In this document: piece by piece, positions 18,457 to 26,050 of the stretch | Layout of the letters: each line of letters opens with the position of its first letter | Numbering within the stretch: position 1 is the stretch's first letter | The notes under the pieces: generated by a model | Databases searched by the model: none | Told to the model about the DNA's origin: nothing | The model's input: the letters and a program-made list of their open reading frames with translations, nothing else | Made by a program: the position numbers and the translations under genes | Origin: Paenibacillus ginsengihumi DSM 21568 | GTDB lineage: Bacteria; Bacillota; Bacilli; Paenibacillales; NBRC-103111 | DNA: 64,000 nucleotides | Direction: 5' to 3' | Assembly (NCBI RefSeq): GCF_000380965.1 | Contig: NZ_KB905567.1 | Coordinates: forward strand, 1-64,000

Positions 18457-18596
18457 TGCTAGGAGTCCGATCTTGAGCTCGTGACCACCCGTTTCGGGCA
18501 AATTTTTCATCCGCCGCCGATGGCGTCCGATGCCATACAGCTTCGGTCGTTTTCTCGCGTCTGGTCGGACGAATCGTTTATAATTGAGGGATGGTT

Positions 18597-21500
18597 TTGA
18601 ATCGAATATCACGCCGCAAGACCGGCGCGATCCTGCTTGTGCTTGGGATGCTGCTGGCGGCGGCGCTTGCCGTCTTGCTCGCCGGAGGCCGGGAGCTGTC
18701 GGTTCGCATGCTGTACGCCACATCGGGCGACCAGTTCGATGCGGCCGCTTACGGCCACCTGGCGCAAGCCGGCATCGCCGGACTCAAGCTGGAGCGCAAG
18801 CCGCTGGAGGATGTCAGCGCGCAGCAGCTCGGCCGGTACGACACGGTATATTTGGACCCGTCCCTGCAGGGGGCGCTGACGCCGGAGCTGCGTCAGCGGC
18901 TGGAAGCCTTCGTCGCCCAGGGCGGGCATCTGTTCCTTGAAAATGGTTTTGCCAACGACTTCGAACCCGAATTTCTCGGCGCGCAGTCGGTCGTGCCCGT
19001 CTCCCCGCCGGAGACGCTGACAGTGCCGGCCGGCGGCCTGCCGCCGGGCTTGTCCCGCGTATCCGAGCTGGCTTTCGTCTATCCTGAAGCCGGGCTGCAC
19101 CTGCAAGGCTTGCAGGAGCTGTTCGCGCAGTTTATGGACAACTATATGAAGCATGACCTCGATGGAAGCCTGCGCAGCTTCGAGTGGGGCCACGGGCTCG
19201 TGCCGTCCACCGCCCAGACGGTCGTCGGCCTGCGAGACGCGTCCCAGCCGGTCGCGCTGTATGCGTTGAACCGATATGGCGAAGGGACCGTCTTCTTCAG
19301 CGGAATGCTGCTGCCAAACCGGTACCATATTACGGGATACGATCTCGCGAGCGGCATCGACCCGCAGCTCGGCTTCGAGCGGCTGGCCGCAGCAATCAAC
19401 GAGAAGCGCAAGCCGGAACAAGGTTCGGTCTATTTCAACCGCAACAAGCTGCCGGTCGAGCCTTATTTCAACTTCACCTTTGCCGCCGGCAGCGCGATGT
19501 TCCGCAGCGAATATGCGGCCTTCGTCTCGAAAGAGAAGCTCGGCTACAGCGTCGCGAAAGTGCTCGGCCCCTACGGCCGGCCGGCGATGGCTTACCAGAA
19601 CCACTTCGAGGCGCTGGAGGCGATCCGGGACAAGGAGGGCATCCAGTGGGCGGAGCTGCTGCGGGAATACGATCAGATTCCTTCGTTCTCGCTCGTTCGC
19701 GCCACCTACCGCTGGGGCCGCTGGACCGAATCGGCGGTCGTCCATCTGAATGAAGGAACGAACGAGAAGCCTTCGTTCCAGGGCGAGACGCCGAATTCGT
19801 TCTATTCCAGCGGCATACGGATTATGGCCGAGGACGGGCCGGTGCAGGGAGCCGATTACGGCCAGTCCTTATCGCTCGGCGATCCCGTCCAGCTGCCGTA
19901 CCGCGCTTACCCGGCGCTGGCCGATCTGGACGGCGACGGCAAGCCGGAGCTGATCGTCGGCTCGGCGGACGGCTTCATTTATGCCTACCGCAATCTCGGC
20001 GCATCGGCCGCAGCCTACGGCGACCAGCAGCTGCCGGCAAACGCGGCGCCGCCCGACGCCTTCGGCAAGCGGGAGCCGCTGCGCCTGGCCAGCGGCGAGC
20101 CGCTGGCCGCCGGATCGTACGCCAGCGTGGCGGCGTACGATCTGAACGGCGACGGCCGGCCGGATCTGCTGCTCGGGCGCGAGGACGGCACGCTGGCGGT
20201 GGCCTATGGCCAGGCCGGCGGCACGTTCGCCGCGCCGGTGCCGCTTACAGCCGGCGGGCAGCCGATCCGCGGCGCCGCTCCTCTGGCGCCGACCGTAGGC
20301 GACGTCACCGGAGACGGCATCCCCGACCTCGTGGTCGGGGATGCCAGCGGCGGGGTGACGCTGTACCGCGGCGTCCGGCCGGCGGCAGAGGCGGGCTCCG
20401 GCGCGGCCGCTTGGGAGGCCGGGCGCCTGCTGTTTCGGCTGCCTGTGCCTTACGCCGCTCCGTCCGTCCGCGACATGAACGGGGACGGACGAGCGGATCT
20501 GGTCGTCGGCAACCTCGAGGGCGACCTGCGCATTTATGTGCAGACCGAATCCGGAGGCTGGGAAGAGGCCGGCGTGATCGAAGGCGCCAGCTTGAATCAG
20601 GTCGGCAATCACGCCCTCGTCGGCGGTCACAACAGCGTGCCGCTCTGGTACGATCTGAACCATGACGGCAAGGACGACCTGATCGTCGGCCAGCTGGAAT
20701 TCGGCCTGCCGACACCGCTCGACAGCCCGCACTTCGCTTATGCCGACGAATTGAACGAATTTATTCAATACGCCAAAGAGCATCATCTTGAGCTGTATCC
20801 GCATCTGTTCTTTCATAATTACAGAAGCGACGAGCAGGAGAAGCAGGAGATCGCCCTGCATCGCGCGGCGTTCGACAAGCTGGGCATCCCGTGGGGCATG
20901 ACGGGAACGAACCAGCATACGTGGCGGGTCAGCCACGGAGACCGGATGCAGACGCTGAACAACGAGCGCGATGCCGGCATCTGGTTCAACTTCGGCTTCC
21001 GGCCGCCATACGATCCGAACGAGCCGCGGCTCGGGCTCGAATACAACTGGGGCCTGCCGTTCCTGCTGACGGACAGTACGGGCGAGCCGCAGCTCGACAA
21101 GCCGATGGTGCTGCATACACCGGCGCCGGTGCTGCGGACGGACCCGATCTATTCCACCAAAGACATCTTTACCGCCTATGCCCGGCTCGATATGCCGATC
21201 GATTATTTCGAGCATATCGAATATCATTTTCCGTCGCGAGTCGGCGAGCTGCTGAACTTCGTCCGATACATGGACGAAATCCGCGATACGTACAGCTACA
21301 ATTTCATGACCGAACCGCAGATGGCCCGCAGCTTCCTGAATACGCTGACGACAGACGTCAAGCTGTACCGTCCGTGGCGGGCGGTCGTATCCGAACGATT
21401 GCGCAAAGCCTTCGGCCTCGCCGTCGAGCCGTCCTTCGTGGTCAAGCCCGATACGTCGCGGGTGCCGGCGCAAGCCGCGGAATACAAGGGCACGCTCGGC

Positions 21501-21899
21501 CTGGTCGTGGAGCCGGGCATCCCGTACGCCGCGCGGCAGCCGGTTGCGGACGGCAGCGTCTACGATCTGCGCGGCGGCAAGCTGTACTTCGGGGCTCCGG
21601 CTAGCATTAACGTTCGATTTGCCGCTCCTTCGGAAGGCGGCAACCCCGCGGGCGGACAAGCTGCGGCGGACAAGCCGCATCTGACGCGCATTAACGTCCC
21701 TTACCGGCTGGATCGGAAGACGGACGTATGGAAGCTGGAGTTGCAGTCTGCCGGCATGCAGCAGCTGCAAGTGTACAGCCGCCGCACCGTCACCGCGGAA
21801 GGCTCGGAATGGAAGACGGAATATGACGAAGAAGAGCATCTCTATACATTTACCCGCTACGGCGACGCGGCTTCCTTGACGCTCCGCTTCGGCCCGTAA
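18597..21899 (+). CDS. Large exported FG-GAP/VCBS repeat protein with flanking carbohydrate-enzyme-like domains
   Basis: An 1100-residue protein with one N-terminal membrane helix (about 10-30), otherwise outside the cell. Residues about 35-290 look like a GATase/ThuA-type alpha/beta domain (YDTVYLDPS, VAQGGHLFLENGF). Residues about 440-700 hold five calcium-type DxDGDG motifs (DLDGDGKPEL, DLNGDGRPDL, DVTGDGIPDL, DMNGDGRADL, DLNHDGKDDL), the blades of an FG-GAP beta-propeller. The C-terminal 400 residues resemble a deacetylase-like or glycosidase-like TIM barrel (LELYPHLFFHNY, GMTGTNQHTW), but I cannot name the family. I prefer TTG at 18597, six bases after GAGGG; the ATG at 18591 touches that site. 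It lies just upstream of the carrier-protein cassette, on the same strand. Confidence 0.75.
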   Translation: MNRISRRKTGAILLVLGMLLAAALAVLLAGGRELSVRMLYATSGDQFDAAAYGHLAQAGIAGLKLERKPLEDVSAQQLGRYDTVYLDPSLQGALTPELRQRLEAFVAQGGHLFLENGFANDFEPEFLGAQSVVPVSPPETLTVPAGGLPPGLSRVSELAFVYPEAGLHLQGLQELFAQFMDNYMKHDLDGSLRSFEWGHGLVPSTAQTVVGLRDASQPVALYALNRYGEGTVFFSGMLLPNRYHITGYDLASGIDPQLGFERLAAAINEKRKPEQGSVYFNRNKLPVEPYFNFTFAAGSAMFRSEYAAFVSKEKLGYSVAKVLGPYGRPAMAYQNHFEALEAIRDKEGIQWAELLREYDQIPSFSLVRATYRWGRWTESAVVHLNEGTNEKPSFQGETPNSFYSSGIRIMAEDGPVQGADYGQSLSLGDPVQLPYRAYPALADLDGDGKPELIVGSADGFIYAYRNLGASAAAYGDQQLPANAAPPDAFGKREPLRLASGEPLAAGSYASVAAYDLNGDGRPDLLLGREDGTLAVAYGQAGGTFAAPVPLTAGGQPIRGAAPLAPTVGDVTGDGIPDLVVGDASGGVTLYRGVRPAAEAGSGAAAWEAGRLLFRLPVPYAAPSVRDMNGDGRADLVVGNLEGDLRIYVQTESGGWEEAGVIEGASLNQVGNHALVGGHNSVPLWYDLNHDGKDDLIVGQLEFGLPTPLDSPHFAYADELNEFIQYAKEHHLELYPHLFFHNYRSDEQEKQEIALHRAAFDKLGIPWGMTGTNQHTWRVSHGDRMQTLNNERDAGIWFNFGFRPPYDPNEPRLGLEYNWGLPFLLTDSTGEPQLDKPMVLHTPAPVLRTDPIYSTKDIFTAYARLDMPIDYFEHIEYHFPSRVGELLNFVRYMDEIRDTYSYNFMTEPQMARSFLNTLTTDVKLYRPWRAVVSERLRKAFGLAVEPSFVVKPDTSRVPAQAAEYKGTLGLVVEPGIPYAARQPVADGSVYDLRGGKLYFGAPASINVRFAAPSEGGNPAGGQAAADKPHLTRINVPYRLDRKTDVWKLELQSAGMQQLQVYSRRTVTAEGSEWKTEYDEEEHLYTFTRYGDAASLTLRFGP

Positions 21900-22059: not shown

Positions 22060-22305
22060 ATGGCAGACATTCTCCAGGAACTGGAGGCGCATATCCGCGC
22101 CCGTTACGAGATTGACGAGGACGACGATGAATTTACGCCGGACGTGCATTTGTTCGATTACGGGTATATCGATTCCATCGGCGCCACGGCGCTGATCGCC
22201 CATATCGAGAAAACGTACGGCATCCAGGTGACCAACCAGGATCTGATGCTGTACCCCTTGAATACCGTTCGCGAAATCGCCGACTTCATCCAGAAGAAGC
22301 GATAA
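22060..22305 (+). CDS. DltC-like acyl/aminoacyl carrier protein
   Basis: An 81-residue four-helix carrier protein. The 4'-phosphopantetheine serine is Ser39 in the motif GYIDSIGATALIAHIEKTYGI, followed by YPLNTVREIADFI, as in DltC and other stand-alone aminoacyl carrier proteins. The ATG at 22060 has AAGGAGG nine bases upstream; a TTG one codon earlier is less likely. It is the first gene of a cassette that continues with an amino acid:carrier ligase, an SGNH protein, a DltX-like peptide and an MBOAT. It should therefore carry an activated amino acid to the membrane, rather than serve fatty-acid synthesis. A structured repeat block separates it from the ligase. Confidence 0.9.
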   Translation: MADILQELEAHIRARYEIDEDDDEFTPDVHLFDYGYIDSIGATALIAHIEKTYGIQVTNQDLMLYPLNTVREIADFIQKKR

Positions 22306-22337
22306 CGGCGAGGGCGGCATTTCGCTGCCCTTCCCTA

Positions 22338-22597
22338 TCTTGAAAATAGCGCCCAGGGCCCGCGGCCCAATTTTCACCATCTGATGGTGCTGCGCAAGCC
22401 GCATGGGCGTCTATCTTGAAAAATTGGACGGAATCCTCCGGCGAATTTTTCAACGCCGAAGGTGACGACCGATGACGGCAGGAGTTGTTCGTCATAGGCG
22501 TCCATCTGGAAAAATCAGCTTTATCTACAAGCTGATTTTTCAATACCGCAGGTGACGACCGATGGCGAAGGAATCGCTCGTCATAGGCGTCTATCCC
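22338..22597. repeat. Structured intergenic repeat, three tandem units (copy E)
   Basis: Unit 1 (22338-22413) matches 13167-13239. Unit 2 (22414-22504) matches 13240-13330. Unit 3 (22505-22597) has the same core with a different hairpin. The first-stem arms are TGAAAAATT/AATTTTTCA in unit 2 and AAAATCAGCTT/AAGCTGATTTT in unit 3: different bases, pairing kept. All end with GGCGTCTATC or GGCGTCCATC. The block lies between carrier and ligase genes, and unit 3 runs into the apparent open frame of the ligase. Confidence 0.75.
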
Positions 22598-22624
22598 AAT
22601 CCGAAGAACTGCGAGGTAACTGCC

Positions 22625-23821
22625 ATGGACTGTGTTATTTCCCTGGAGGGTCTCGACCCCGGCCAGTACGGCCAATTGAAATATGCTGCGGCCTTCGTTG
22701 ACGAACATATTCAGGACATCCGCATCGAGGATGGCCATATTCATATCGCGCACCAATCGCCCAAGGGCGACGAGGCGATCCGCGAGCGTGTGCAGCGGCT
22801 GATCGAGCGCTTTTCCCACGGCGATTTCGGCTTCAAGGAGAACGTGCTGTTCGAGCACCGCGTGCAGACGCCGTACGAAGGCGACATTGTCGCCGAGCTG
22901 ATCGAACGCAAAATCATCAAGGTGCTGGAGCCCGGCCTGTTCATTTTCCGCGAGCCGTTCAGCAGCCTGATGCGTTTCTTCGATTACTCGTTCGTAACGA
23001 AGATCGCCAGCCGCTTCGAGGGCGTGAAGGAGGAGTCCTACCCGGCCGTCATTCACTGTACGACGCTGGATAAGACGAATCATTTCACTTCGTTCCCCGA
23101 GCACATTCATTTCCTGTCGCATCTGCGTGAGGATCTCGACGTCATCGAGGCGTTCTCGCAATCGGTCCGCGAGGCCGGCGGCTGGAAAGAGGACGCGCCG
23201 CTCGATCTGAACGCGAATATGCCGAAGCCGCGTTTTACGATGAATCCGTCCACCTGCTATCACTGCTATGAAGGATTGCAGAACGAGACGCTCGACACCG
23301 ACGGCCTGATCGTCAGCGCCATCGCCAAATGCCACCGCTTCGAGTCGAGGAACCATGCCGATTTTGGCCGGCTGCTCGATTTCAGCATGCGCGAGATTAT
23401 TTTCGTCGGCAAGCCCGACTTTGTGAAGGAGAACCGCCTGCAGGCGATCGAGTATTTGAAGGAGCTGGCCGCCGAATGGAACGTGGACAGCCTGCTCGAA
23501 ATCGCCAACGACCCGTTCTTCACCAACGATTTTCAGGTGAAGGCTTCGTTCCAGCGCAACCAGGAGATGAAGTACGAGCTGCGCCTGTCGATCCCGCATC
23601 TCAAGAAGTCGATTGCCTGCAGCTCTGTCAATTTCCACAGCAATACGTTCGGCAATGCCTTTAACATCAAGGTCGGCAAACGGCCAGCGGTAACCGGCTG
23701 CGTCGGCTTCGGCATCGAGCGCTGGACGTTCGCTTTTTTGGCACAATACGGTTTGGACGAGGAGCAGTGGCCGGCATCGTTCCGCGAGCAATACCGGGCA
23801 TGGCAGCAAAAAGCGCTGTAA
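22625..23821 (+). CDS. Amino acid:[carrier protein] ligase, class-II aaRS-like
   Basis: A 398-residue protein that looks like the class-II synthetase-related amino acid:[carrier protein] ligases, homologues of atypical SerRS that lack tRNA binding and load an amino acid on a carrier phosphopantetheine. A motif-2-like segment is CHRFESRN...MREIIFVG (about 236-262) and motif 3 is GFGIERWTFAF (361-371). Candidate zinc ligands, by analogy with that family, are Cys211 (PSTCYHC), Glu240 (HRFES) and Cys332 (IACSS). The frame is open from an ATG at 22562, but its first 12 codons are repeat unit 3. I choose ATG 22625, with GAGG eight bases upstream, outside the repeat. It takes the place of DltA in this cassette. 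Substrate probably small (Gly, Ala or Ser), not determinable here. Confidence 0.82.
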   Translation: MDCVISLEGLDPGQYGQLKYAAAFVDEHIQDIRIEDGHIHIAHQSPKGDEAIRERVQRLIERFSHGDFGFKENVLFEHRVQTPYEGDIVAELIERKIIKVLEPGLFIFREPFSSLMRFFDYSFVTKIASRFEGVKEESYPAVIHCTTLDKTNHFTSFPEHIHFLSHLREDLDVIEAFSQSVREAGGWKEDAPLDLNANMPKPRFTMNPSTCYHCYEGLQNETLDTDGLIVSAIAKCHRFESRNHADFGRLLDFSMREIIFVGKPDFVKENRLQAIEYLKELAAEWNVDSLLEIANDPFFTNDFQVKASFQRNQEMKYELRLSIPHLKKSIACSSVNFHSNTFGNAFNIKVGKRPAVTGCVGFGIERWTFAFLAQYGLDEEQWPASFREQYRAWQQKAL

Positions 23822-23894
23822 CCGGGAGGGGCCCTGCCGCCGGCGGCAAGCCGCACCGGTTCAATCTCCCTATAAAGTGTGGTTTTAACCGATC

Positions 23895-24791
23895 ATGATC
23901 GCTTTTATCCGCAAAAGCAGCTTTGTGCTGCTCCTGCTCGCCGCGTTCGTCGTGTCGGATGTTCTGATAACGATGTGGGACCCGATGGTGACGTCGCGGC
24001 GCTTCTATAAGGACGATTTCACCAAAACGTTATACCATCACGACTGGCGAACCAGCGGCCCGACGTTCTACGGCAACTCCGCCGTGACCGGCGCTTATAT
24101 CGAGGAGCAGTCGACGTCCGGCTTGATCGAGATGGGTCTGTCCTACGGCAAGCTGACCGATCTGAAAGCCATTTTGGAGCAGGACTTGTTCCGGCCGGAA
24201 CAGCAGCTGGTCATCGGCATCGACGTGCATACGATGCTCGACATCCTGCCGACCGACCCCACCTACCGCTGGTTCAAGCCTTGGTACCAGCCGTACGTAT
24301 ACTTTTACCGCGATTATTTCCGCGATTCGGGAACGGAATTCGTGCGCAACCTGCTGCTCAAGCGCAGCCTGGCCTATGAGCCTCGCTGGATCGACAAGCT
24401 GCTGTACTTCGGGCGCATGACAGGCGAGGACCTGAACAAAAAGTGGCATGAGTACGAGCAGCGTTTCAATTGGGCTTCTCCCCGGGAATACCAGGATAAT
24501 TTGCAGGCGCTCGATTGGATTTTGGCTTACTGCCAGGAACGCGGCTTGCCGCTGCGAGTCGTCTGGATGCCATGGAATCGCGATTACGAGCTTCCCCGTT
24601 ACATGCCTGGTCTTCGGGAAGAGGTGGATCGCCGGCTGGAGGCATACGGGATTCCGGTACTTGACAAGCTCACCGCCTATGATCCGAAATATATGCACGA
24701 CCTGGTTCACCTGAACCGGGAGGATGGCGCGCCCCTGTTCACGAAGGAGGTGGACGCATGGCTCGCTTCGCTCGCAAGCTCTTCGAAGTGA
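23895..24791 (+). CDS. DltD/AlgX-like SGNH-fold membrane protein
   Basis: A 298-residue protein with one N-terminal membrane helix (about 8-26) and an extracytoplasmic SGNH-like domain. The nucleophile motif is FYGNSAVTG with Ser62 (GNS, as in DltD-type and AlgJ/X-type members rather than GDS). The C-terminal Asp269-Leu-Val-His272 gives the matching DxxH dyad. Such proteins work with MBOAT acyltransferases to move acyl groups onto extracellular polymers; DltD does this for D-alanine on teichoic acid. The ATG at 23895 has only a weak ribosome site (GGTTTTAACCGATC). A GC-rich palindrome (around 23820-23862) precedes it. Its 3' end overlaps the DltX-like gene. Confidence 0.8.
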   Translation: MIAFIRKSSFVLLLLAAFVVSDVLITMWDPMVTSRRFYKDDFTKTLYHHDWRTSGPTFYGNSAVTGAYIEEQSTSGLIEMGLSYGKLTDLKAILEQDLFRPEQQLVIGIDVHTMLDILPTDPTYRWFKPWYQPYVYFYRDYFRDSGTEFVRNLLLKRSLAYEPRWIDKLLYFGRMTGEDLNKKWHEYEQRFNWASPREYQDNLQALDWILAYCQERGLPLRVVWMPWNRDYELPRYMPGLREEVDRRLEAYGIPVLDKLTAYDPKYMHDLVHLNREDGAPLFTKEVDAWLASLASSSK

Positions 24792-24868
24792 TTCTGTACT
24801 TGGCCATGCTGATCATGGTGCTCATTTATTTTACCGGCAAAGGGCTCTTCATCTACGAAGGCTTCTAA
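24758..24868 (+). CDS. DltX-like membrane microprotein, 36 aa
   Basis: This is a very short gene overlapping the 3' end of the SGNH gene in another frame. It starts ATG GCT CGC with AAGGAGG seven bases upstream. The peptide has a basic N-terminus (MARFARKLFE), one membrane helix (VILYLAMLIMVLIYFTG) and the C-terminal tail KGLFIYEGF. DltX proteins of dlt operons are 45-50 residues with one helix and end in a conserved FIYNEF-like motif that inserts in the DltB active site. The FIYEGF end and the place directly before an MBOAT gene fit that family closely. It is somewhat shorter than typical DltX. Confidence 0.8.
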   Translation: MARFARKLFEVILYLAMLIMVLIYFTGKGLFIYEGF

Positions 24869-24898
24869 TGCCTTGAACCTGCAAGGGAGCAATCGGTT

Positions 24899-26050
24899 AT
24901 GTGGTATTTGAACATGAACGCGGTGATGGCGATGGCCGGTATCGCCATCGTCCTCGGCCTGACCCGGCGGTGGCAGAGCAACAAGCGCTGGCTCATGCTC
25001 GCGTTCAATCTGTGCTTTCTGCTGCTGTTTAGTCAGAAGCTGTTCGCCTTCTATCTCGGCTATACGGCGCTCAATTACCTCGCTTTCCTGTGGCTAAGCT
25101 ATGCGAAGCGAATGCGCAAGCCGCTGTTCATTGGGCTGATCGCGGCGAATGTAGCTGCCGTCTCGTCGCTTCGCCTGCTCGGCATGGAGGTGTGGACACA
25201 TCCGGCCTTTGACGCCGTCATAACGCTCGGACTGATCTATAATGTGCTGAAGGTCATCGATGCGCTGTATTTCGCCTATTTCTTCGGTACGGAGGCGCGG
25301 GCGCGGGTGCTGGACTATTTCAACTACATTTTGTTTATTCCTACGTTCACTTCGGGACCGATCCTGAAGTTTCGCGATTTTATGGCCGATGCGAAGCAGC
25401 CGTACCAAGTGGACGCCCAGCAGACGGAGGCAAGCATCAAACGGATCATCCTCGGCATGTTCAAAAAAATCGTCGTCGTCGCCTGGATGACGGAGGTATT
25501 CGATGATGTCCTGGCAGGGGGACTGCACACGCACGAATCGCTGTTTCTGATGATCTGGTTTTATGCGCTCATTTATTTCGACTTTTCCGGTTATTCGGAT
25601 ATCGCGGTCGGCTTCGGCCGGCTGATGGGCTACAATATCCCGGAAAATTTCAAGAAGCCGTTCCAATCGCCGACGCTGACGCAGTATTGGCGCAATTGGC
25701 ACGCCACGCTCGGCGACTGGTTCCGCGACCATATCTTCATCTTCTTCTCCCGGCAAACGCCGACCAAATGGACGGCCGCCGGCCTGTCCGTGCTGATTAT
25801 GGTGCTTATCGGACTGTGGCACGGCTTCACCTGGCTGTATCTGGCCTGGGGCGTCTATCACGGCATCTTGCTCGCGCTGGAAAATTTGCTCGGCAAGACG
25901 ACAGTCAACAAGCGCAAAGTGTCGCGCGCTTATTTCTGGTTCCGCTGCGCCCTTGTCCAATTGTTCGTCACAGCGGCGGTCATCGTCTACGGCGGGACGG
26001 CCGAAACGGTGGAGAAAATCTACCGAGGACTGCTGAACTGGCCTTGGTAG
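24899..26050 (+). CDS. MBOAT family O-acyltransferase, DltB-like
   Basis: A 383-residue polytopic membrane protein of the MBOAT family, with about ten helices. Family segments are FIPTFTSGPILKFRDF, YALIYFDFSGYSDIAVGFGRLMGYNIPENFKKPFQSPTLTQYWRNWH (catalytic-region loop) and LIGLWHGFTWLYLAWG, which contains the conserved catalytic histidine His308. In dlt operons this enzyme takes D-alanine from the carrier protein and passes it through the membrane. Here the donor is presumably the carrier at 22060. AAGGGAG precedes the ATG, 30 bases after the DltX-like gene. A terminator follows, so it ends the cassette. Confidence 0.92.
   Translation: MWYLNMNAVMAMAGIAIVLGLTRRWQSNKRWLMLAFNLCFLLLFSQKLFAFYLGYTALNYLAFLWLSYAKRMRKPLFIGLIAANVAAVSSLRLLGMEVWTHPAFDAVITLGLIYNVLKVIDALYFAYFFGTEARARVLDYFNYILFIPTFTSGPILKFRDFMADAKQPYQVDAQQTEASIKRIILGMFKKIVVVAWMTEVFDDVLAGGLHTHESLFLMIWFYALIYFDFSGYSDIAVGFGRLMGYNIPENFKKPFQSPTLTQYWRNWHATLGDWFRDHIFIFFSRQTPTKWTAAGLSVLIMVLIGLWHGFTWLYLAWGVYHGILLALENLLGKTTVNKRKVSRAYFWFRCALVQLFVTAAVIVYGGTAETVEKIYRGLLNWPW

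Follow-up and report, generated by a model that had tools for sequence, protein, structure and literature searches.

A class-II synthetase-like ligase gene fixed beside a Dlt-type acyl shuttle in Paenibacillaceae: a probable envelope aminoacylation system

In the Dlt system (DltXABCD), by which teichoic acid is D-alanylated, a carrier protein and its loading enzyme DltA work with a membrane-bound O-acyltransferase (MBOAT, DltB), an SGNH protein (DltD) and a microprotein with the motif FXYXXF. This motif holds a covalent acyl-tyrosine intermediate in both DltX and PatA, and MBOAT pathways other than Dlt are said to lack a DltX-like microprotein (PMC12148441). A second described family, the amino acid:[carrier protein] ligases, is zinc-dependent and has glycine, alanine or serine as cargo; its biological role is called unknown (PMC9437257). 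Carrier-based transfer of glycine to the envelope has also been described for AlmE and the glycylation of lipopolysaccharide (LPS) (PMC11253843). The locus considered here brings together elements of the first two systems. It lies in a stretch of 64,000 nucleotides of Paenibacillus ginsengihumi DSM 21568 (assembly GCF_000380965.1, contig NZ_KB905567.1, positions 1 to 64,000), referred to as the window, and carries a ligase gene beside genes for a carrier, a DltB-like MBOAT, an SGNH protein, a DltX-like microprotein and a PelA-like protein. Judged by its sequence, this cassette probably encodes a Dlt-type system for aminoacylation across the membrane, equipped with a loading enzyme of its own. 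Its features are as follows:

18591..21899, plus strand: PelA-like membrane-anchored protein with an FG-GAP propeller, 1102 aa
22060..22305, plus strand: phosphopantetheine carrier protein, Ser39 in FDYGYIDSIG (PF00550, E 9e-13)
22306..22624, no strand: direct repeats of about 90 bp, copies of a dispersed family, in the gap between carrier and ligase genes
22625..23821, plus strand: putative amino acid:[carrier protein] ligase resembling class-II aminoacyl-tRNA synthetases (aaRS), 398 aa, with matches to PRK07080 and Bll0957
23895..24791, plus strand: SGNH transferase, membrane-anchored, DltD-like, with S62, D269 and H272
24758..24868, plus strand: DltX-like microprotein, 36 aa, one hydrophobic helix and a C-terminal FIYEGF (Tyr33)
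24899..26050, plus strand: DltB-like MBOAT, 383 aa, with H268 and H308 (PF03062, E 2e-20)

A sequence-only reading of the window had described five of these genes, from carrier to MBOAT, as a dlt-like cassette in which a class-II aaRS-like ligase replaces DltA. All five open reading frames (ORFs) are present on the plus strand in the order given there, and the residues singled out were recovered: the carrier serine in its DSIG context, GNS at S62 and D269xxH272 in the SGNH protein, the FIYEGF ending of the 36-residue peptide and His308 of the MBOAT. The limits drawn for the unit did not hold, as the conserved unit starts further upstream, at 18591, and the PelA-like gene belongs to it as a sixth member.

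Conservation was assessed by scanning named genomes with two exact peptide patterns, so that the scan reaches close relatives only; 94 ligase relatives were found and 80 kept, all of them in Paenibacillaceae (Paenibacillus, one Gordonibacillus and three metagenome-assembled genomes, MAGs). Many of a further 25 loci probably coincide with loci among these 80, so that the second set is not independent of the first. The order PelA-like/FG-GAP protein, carrier, ligase, SGNH protein, microprotein, MBOAT is complete on one strand in 77 of the 80 named loci, and the microprotein ends in F.Y..F in every one; taken together, these counts indicate that the arrangement is not due to chance. The co-occurrence of the five genes in other Paenibacillaceae shows in addition that it is not peculiar to this genome. 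At three loci (L138, L139 and L150) the MBOAT gene is not in the 0.6, 4.1 and 0.01 kb, respectively, that remain before the contig end. In the window the microprotein gene begins within the 3' end of the SGNH gene; at 78 of the 80 named loci the two genes share 34 or 35 nt. The MBOAT gene is separated from the microprotein gene by 5.5 kb in Paenibacillus sp. YN15 (L136) and by 1.6 kb in one MAG (L154). The ligase gene is split into two open pieces in L048, L054 and L074; in the latter two other genes are broken as well, for which reason assembly error is the likely cause there.

The ligase was found at E 1e-100 or better in 98 of 392 genomes of the order, 96 of them in the family of the window and two in another family, and in 19 of the 49 genera sampled. 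At least eight genomes of the same family, among those listed in this search, do not have it. A search of 398 genomes from the phylum gave two matches at 1e-20 or better, P. ginsengihumi itself and one distant paralogue. Co-loss was then assessed in 20 genomes, comprising four that are ligase-positive, eight listed family members without the ligase and eight genomes of other families. Both the PelA-like protein and the cassette-type MBOAT (E <1e-160) are present in all four ligase-positive genomes and in none of the 16 ligase-negative ones, 12 of which hold other MBOATs of 25-33% identity. This all-or-none behaviour of the two genes tested supports the cassette being one functional unit.

The PelA-like protein consists of a GATase/ThuA-like domain (about 37-316), an FG-GAP beta-propeller (about 400-707), a barrel-like region and a C-terminal beta-sandwich, and it has the overall fold of PelA and the CE18 deacetylases. 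DUF2194 matches these proteins weakly, in two of 18 with a best E of 0.036, and a piece of the protein compared with Protein Data Bank (PDB) sequences returned nothing useful. A consensus FAAAN presumably stands where a NodB-type TFDD motif might be expected. The presence of such a partner hints that the polymer may be an amino-sugar polysaccharide.

Sequence comparison places the ligase among the class-II aaRS-like amino acid:[carrier protein] ligases, outside the curated PRK07080 subfamily. PRK07080, amino acid--[acyl-carrier-protein] ligase, is its best NCBIfam match (E 1e-44, 152.7 bits), and the nearest solved structure is Bll0957 (3mey, E 8e-29), followed by archaeal-type seryl-tRNA synthetase (SerRS; 3w3s, E 8e-23). 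None of the cassette proteins matches an ANL family in Pfam or NCBIfam, and a relationship of the ligase to DltA was rejected on this account. The motif-3-like GFGIERW and the candidate zinc ligands pointed out earlier are kept: R238 and E240 of motif 2, the presumed zinc ligands C211, E257 and C359, and R366 of motif 3 are invariant across 17 aligned orthologues. These six residues are also present in 21 distant ligases, in Bll0957 and in the SerRS segment, so that the set is not specific against SerRS. By chain numbering C211, E257 and C359 correspond to Cys131, Glu176 and Cys279 of Bll0957, which we take to be its zinc ligands. In a 40-row tree with 39 aaRS-like ligase rows, all 17 cassette ligases fall into a single clade; the one SerRS row was imposed as outgroup on a long branch, and the tree therefore does not test SerRS identity. 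A misread SerRS was considered and judged unlikely, since PRK07080 scores best, Bll0957 is the best solved match and a carrier gene adjoins the ligase gene in 80 of 80 named loci.

The ligase gene runs to 23821 as first read, with a start that is better placed at 22625 than at 22562. ATG 22562 sits inside the dispersed repeat, and 44 of the 80 named relatives have no in-frame start codon upstream of the position equivalent to 22625, which makes ATG 22625 the most likely start from the sequence comparison. The other 36 relatives do have an in-frame upstream start codon, at most 17 codons away; the gap between carrier and ligase genes being 9-53 bp in all 80, these starts would mostly extend the ligase into the carrier gene. 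No relative has a gap as long as that of the window, which is 319 bases and holds copies of the repeat. The family of about 90 bp has many copies in the genome of P. ginsengihumi (40 of 449 first-look candidates were scored and gave 60 matches).

The shuttle components compare with their Dlt counterparts as follows. Ser39 of the carrier is invariant in 19 aligned carriers, two of which are DltC. The MBOAT matches the DltB family TIGR04091 (E 3e-50), DltB chains are the sole PDB matches of its profile (E 1e-36), and H268 and H308 are invariant in 17 aligned cassette MBOATs. The family score alone was rejected as proof of DltB identity because an AlgI-like MBOAT of the same genome also scores 143 bits; length, motif position and tree were used for typing instead. 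The cassette MBOAT is 383 aa long with no FxYxxF at its C-terminus, and the motif is on a separate peptide, as in Dlt. In a comparison set of 33 MBOATs from outside the cassette, 15 of the 18 with at least 450 aa end in F.Y..F, the exceptions being L178 (YIYAGF), L182 (PIYAGF) and L167 (a DltB whose open frame is over-long), and one of the 15 below 450 aa does so (L177, a fragment). Cassette MBOATs group with six DltB rows in a 50-row tree (support 97/98). The AlgI-like MBOAT on contig 10 (L156, 467 aa, ending FLYFRF) is likely an acyl-CoA dependent O-acyltransferase.

The microprotein is alone in ending in F.Y..F among the 677 ORFs of at least 25 aa in the window. S62 and H272 are invariant in 18 aligned SGNH proteins, and D269 is replaced by Glu in one row. 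The structure predicted for the SGNH protein has a DltD-like fold: among the matches listed, the longest aligned stretches are those with four DltD entries. The sequence profile of the protein gave no matches to PDB sequences.

We infer every reaction step, the amino acid and the polymer from the observed gene content, gene order, co-occurrence, homology and catalytic residues. The ligase would use ATP to form an aminoacyl-adenylate and load the aminoacyl group as a thioester on the phosphopantetheine at Ser39 of the carrier. At the cytoplasmic face the DltB-like MBOAT would take this group off the carrier and hand it across the membrane to Tyr33 in the FIYEGF microprotein, in the fashion of DltX. 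The SGNH protein would then accept it on Ser62 and form an ester with a hydroxyl of an extracellular polymer, and the membrane-anchored PelA-like/FG-GAP protein may bind or trim that polymer, which perhaps contains amino sugars. The envelope would thereby gain free amino groups and hence positive charge. The class-II synthetase fold of the loader, and the listing of its studied relatives with Gly, Ala or Ser, make glycine or a small L-amino acid such as Ala or Ser the likely cargo. The earlier proposal that the ligase feeds a Dlt-type MBOAT/SGNH shuttle finds good support in families, catalytic residues, gene order and co-loss; it overlooked the sixth gene, and its replacement of DltA is taken up below. 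A more specific proposal is that these loci form a distinct class of envelope aminoacylation, in which a class-II ligase and a Dlt-type shuttle would place glycine or an L-amino acid on an amino-sugar surface polysaccharide attended by a PelA-like handler; the case for this fuller claim is evenly balanced.

A number of results weigh against this picture. Scores fall below the NCBIfam cut-offs for the carrier (28.5 bits against 68 for DltC), the MBOAT (171 against 375 for DltB), the SGNH protein (17.5 against 150, with weak DltD matches at 0.013 and 0.002) and the ligase (152.7 against the PRK07080 equivalog cut-off of 357), so that these proteins are relatives, and not members, of the curated Dlt and PRK07080 subfamilies. 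The archaeal-type SerRS profile scores close behind PRK07080 on the ligase (E 3e-42; 145 vs 153 bits), and the match to PRK07080, which begins at residue 107 in the longer reading of the gene, leaves about 100 residues at the N-terminus of the ligase uncovered. The grouping of cassette MBOATs with DltB joins long branches, according to a warning of the tree program. Forcing them instead with nine carrier-less split MBOATs is not rejected (approximately unbiased test, p-AU 0.08). Nine other Bacillota loci have a trio of MBOAT, SGNH and FxYxxF-microprotein genes with no carrier in flanks of about 1.5 kb, and the SGNH profile is slightly nearer to the SGNH proteins of such trios (prob 91.5) than to DltD (76.0), each over fewer than 100 columns.

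The last three points also speak for an alternative in which the MBOAT, SGNH protein and microprotein O-acetylate a polymer from acetyl-CoA while carrier and ligase are unrelated and merely co-located. The trios (L168, L169, L170, L171, L172, L175, L176, L180 and L181, also with no ligase in flanks of up to about 1.5 kb) mean that a separate microprotein with the motif is not exclusive to Dlt and is by itself no proof of an aminoacyl cargo. They also suggest that the published lack of microproteins outside Dlt has exceptions. Mere co-location is difficult to reconcile with three observations: all 80 named loci hold the carrier and ligase genes together with those for the SGNH protein and the microprotein, and 77 of them the MBOAT gene as well, two at a distance of 1.6 or 5.5 kb; the MBOAT and PelA-like genes are absent where the ligase is missing; and the MBOAT groups with DltB. 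O-acetylation by a co-located trio is therefore considered unlikely, and an aminoacyl shuttle fed by the ligase is preferred.

Plain D-alanylation of teichoic acid, in which D-alanine is loaded by an enzyme not homologous to DltA, would account for a gene set that mirrors dltXABCD minus DltA. It would also agree with the rarity of DltA, which exceeds its cut-off in just three of 117 relatives, nearly does so in a fourth (545 vs 560 bits) and is not found over the cut-off in P. ginsengihumi. The cassette ligase is, however, present in each of the four genomes that have a DltA-type gene, which would amount to redundancy under D-alanylation and which indicates that the cassette exists side by side with Dlt instead of merely substituting for it. 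The claim of the sequence-only reading that DltA has been replaced consequently applies within the cassette, where no ANL match occurs, and not to these genomes as a whole. The DltA loci of three of them, inspected by eye and with tblastn, hold genes for a DltX-type peptide, DltA, a DltB-like MBOAT and a DltD-like protein, in that order; the peptides end in FVYNEF (G009), FIYNGF (G010) and FIYTEF (G029), and a carrier gene is visible at two of the three loci. The specificity of class-II aaRS cores, for L-amino acids or Gly, speaks against a D-alanine loader. The teichoic acid acceptor also finds little backing in the P. ginsengihumi genome, which has no match to the TagF family (PF04464) and in which the two of 17 sulfatase-domain places scanned for a lipoteichoic acid synthase (LtaS) both score far below the cut-off (65 and 25 vs 970 bits). 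D-alanylation is accordingly rated very unlikely as the function of the cassette, and transfer of glycine or an L-amino acid remains the favoured activity.

Relatives of the ligase occur in other settings. Phyla beyond Bacillota were sampled via plasmids, which gave 93 ligase-relative records, none above 60% identity; of the 40 listed, seven loci were inspected, six of them annotated and one unannotated. A carrier and an acyl-CoA dehydrogenase accompany the ligase in five of the six annotated loci, a BtrH or DUF1839 gene in three and nonribosomal peptide synthetase (NRPS) genes in one; no annotated MBOAT is present in the six. The window MBOAT had no match at E 1e-3 in 12 distant Paenibacillales ligase loci. 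A very divergent ligase relative (22% identity) on a plasmid of the honeybee lactobacillus Apilactobacillus kunkeei (L197, 6295-7699) adjoins a carrier-like gene and ddl-annotated genes. The plasmid loci with a dehydrogenase or NRPS genes lend some colour to a last alternative, that the loaded amino acid is the precursor of a small secreted metabolite acylated by the MBOAT, as in the biosynthetic clusters of amino acid:[carrier protein] ligases, but this deserves hardly any credence for a cassette that has no dehydrogenase, NRPS or polyketide synthase gene, includes two membrane-anchored proteins and, unlike a typical metabolite cluster, has its gene order preserved at 77 of the 80 named loci and spans 19 of 49 sampled genera of the order.

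With the ligase fixed beside a complete transmembrane acyl shuttle, the envelope aminoacylation system proposed here predicts a destination for the amino acid that can be tested with few genes. If it is correct, it would provide a physiological role for amino acid:[carrier protein] ligases and link a translation-derived enzyme fold to the modification of the cell wall. It would also mean that the Dlt route can be fed by an unrelated activating enzyme, which would widen the known chemistry of surface charge control. Text searches of titles and abstract openings, with subscription literature mostly outside their reach, found no description of an aaRS-like ligase combined with a Dlt-type shuttle.

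Compared with described systems, the cassette has in common with Dlt a carrier, a DltB-like MBOAT, a DltD-like SGNH protein and a separate FXYXXF microprotein, as well as the presumed acyl route from carrier to tyrosine to serine to polymer. It differs in having a class-II aaRS-like ligase as loader instead of DltA, an additional PelA-like protein and another gene order, in scoring below the Dlt cut-offs, and in occurring alongside DltA-type genes. With Bll0957 and other amino acid:[carrier protein] ligases it shares the class-II core, the C/E/C presumed zinc site, motifs 2 and 3 and the adjacent carrier gene; the N-terminal residues beyond the PRK07080 match are particular to the cassette ligase, and its partners are an MBOAT, an SGNH protein and a microprotein, whereas an acyl-CoA dehydrogenase is the usual partner in the annotated plasmid loci. 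O-acetylation pairs of the PatAB and AlgI type likewise combine an MBOAT and an SGNH protein with a C-terminal FXYXXF acyl-shuttle motif; PatA has an acyl-CoA donor and the motif on the MBOAT itself (PMC12148441), whereas in the cassette the motif is on a peptide of its own and both a carrier and a ligase are present. PelA differs from the cassette protein, to which it is 11% identical, by the FG-GAP propeller inserted in the latter, and no PelG-family gene (PF16933) is present in the P. ginsengihumi genome. In the AlmEFG system, which places glycine on lipid A and of which AlmF and AlmG are parts, AlmE is an adenylation-domain (ANL) enzyme, the acceptor is LPS and neither an MBOAT nor an SGNH protein is known to take part; if the cargo of the cassette is glycine, the two would have in common a carrier-based aminoacylation of the envelope.

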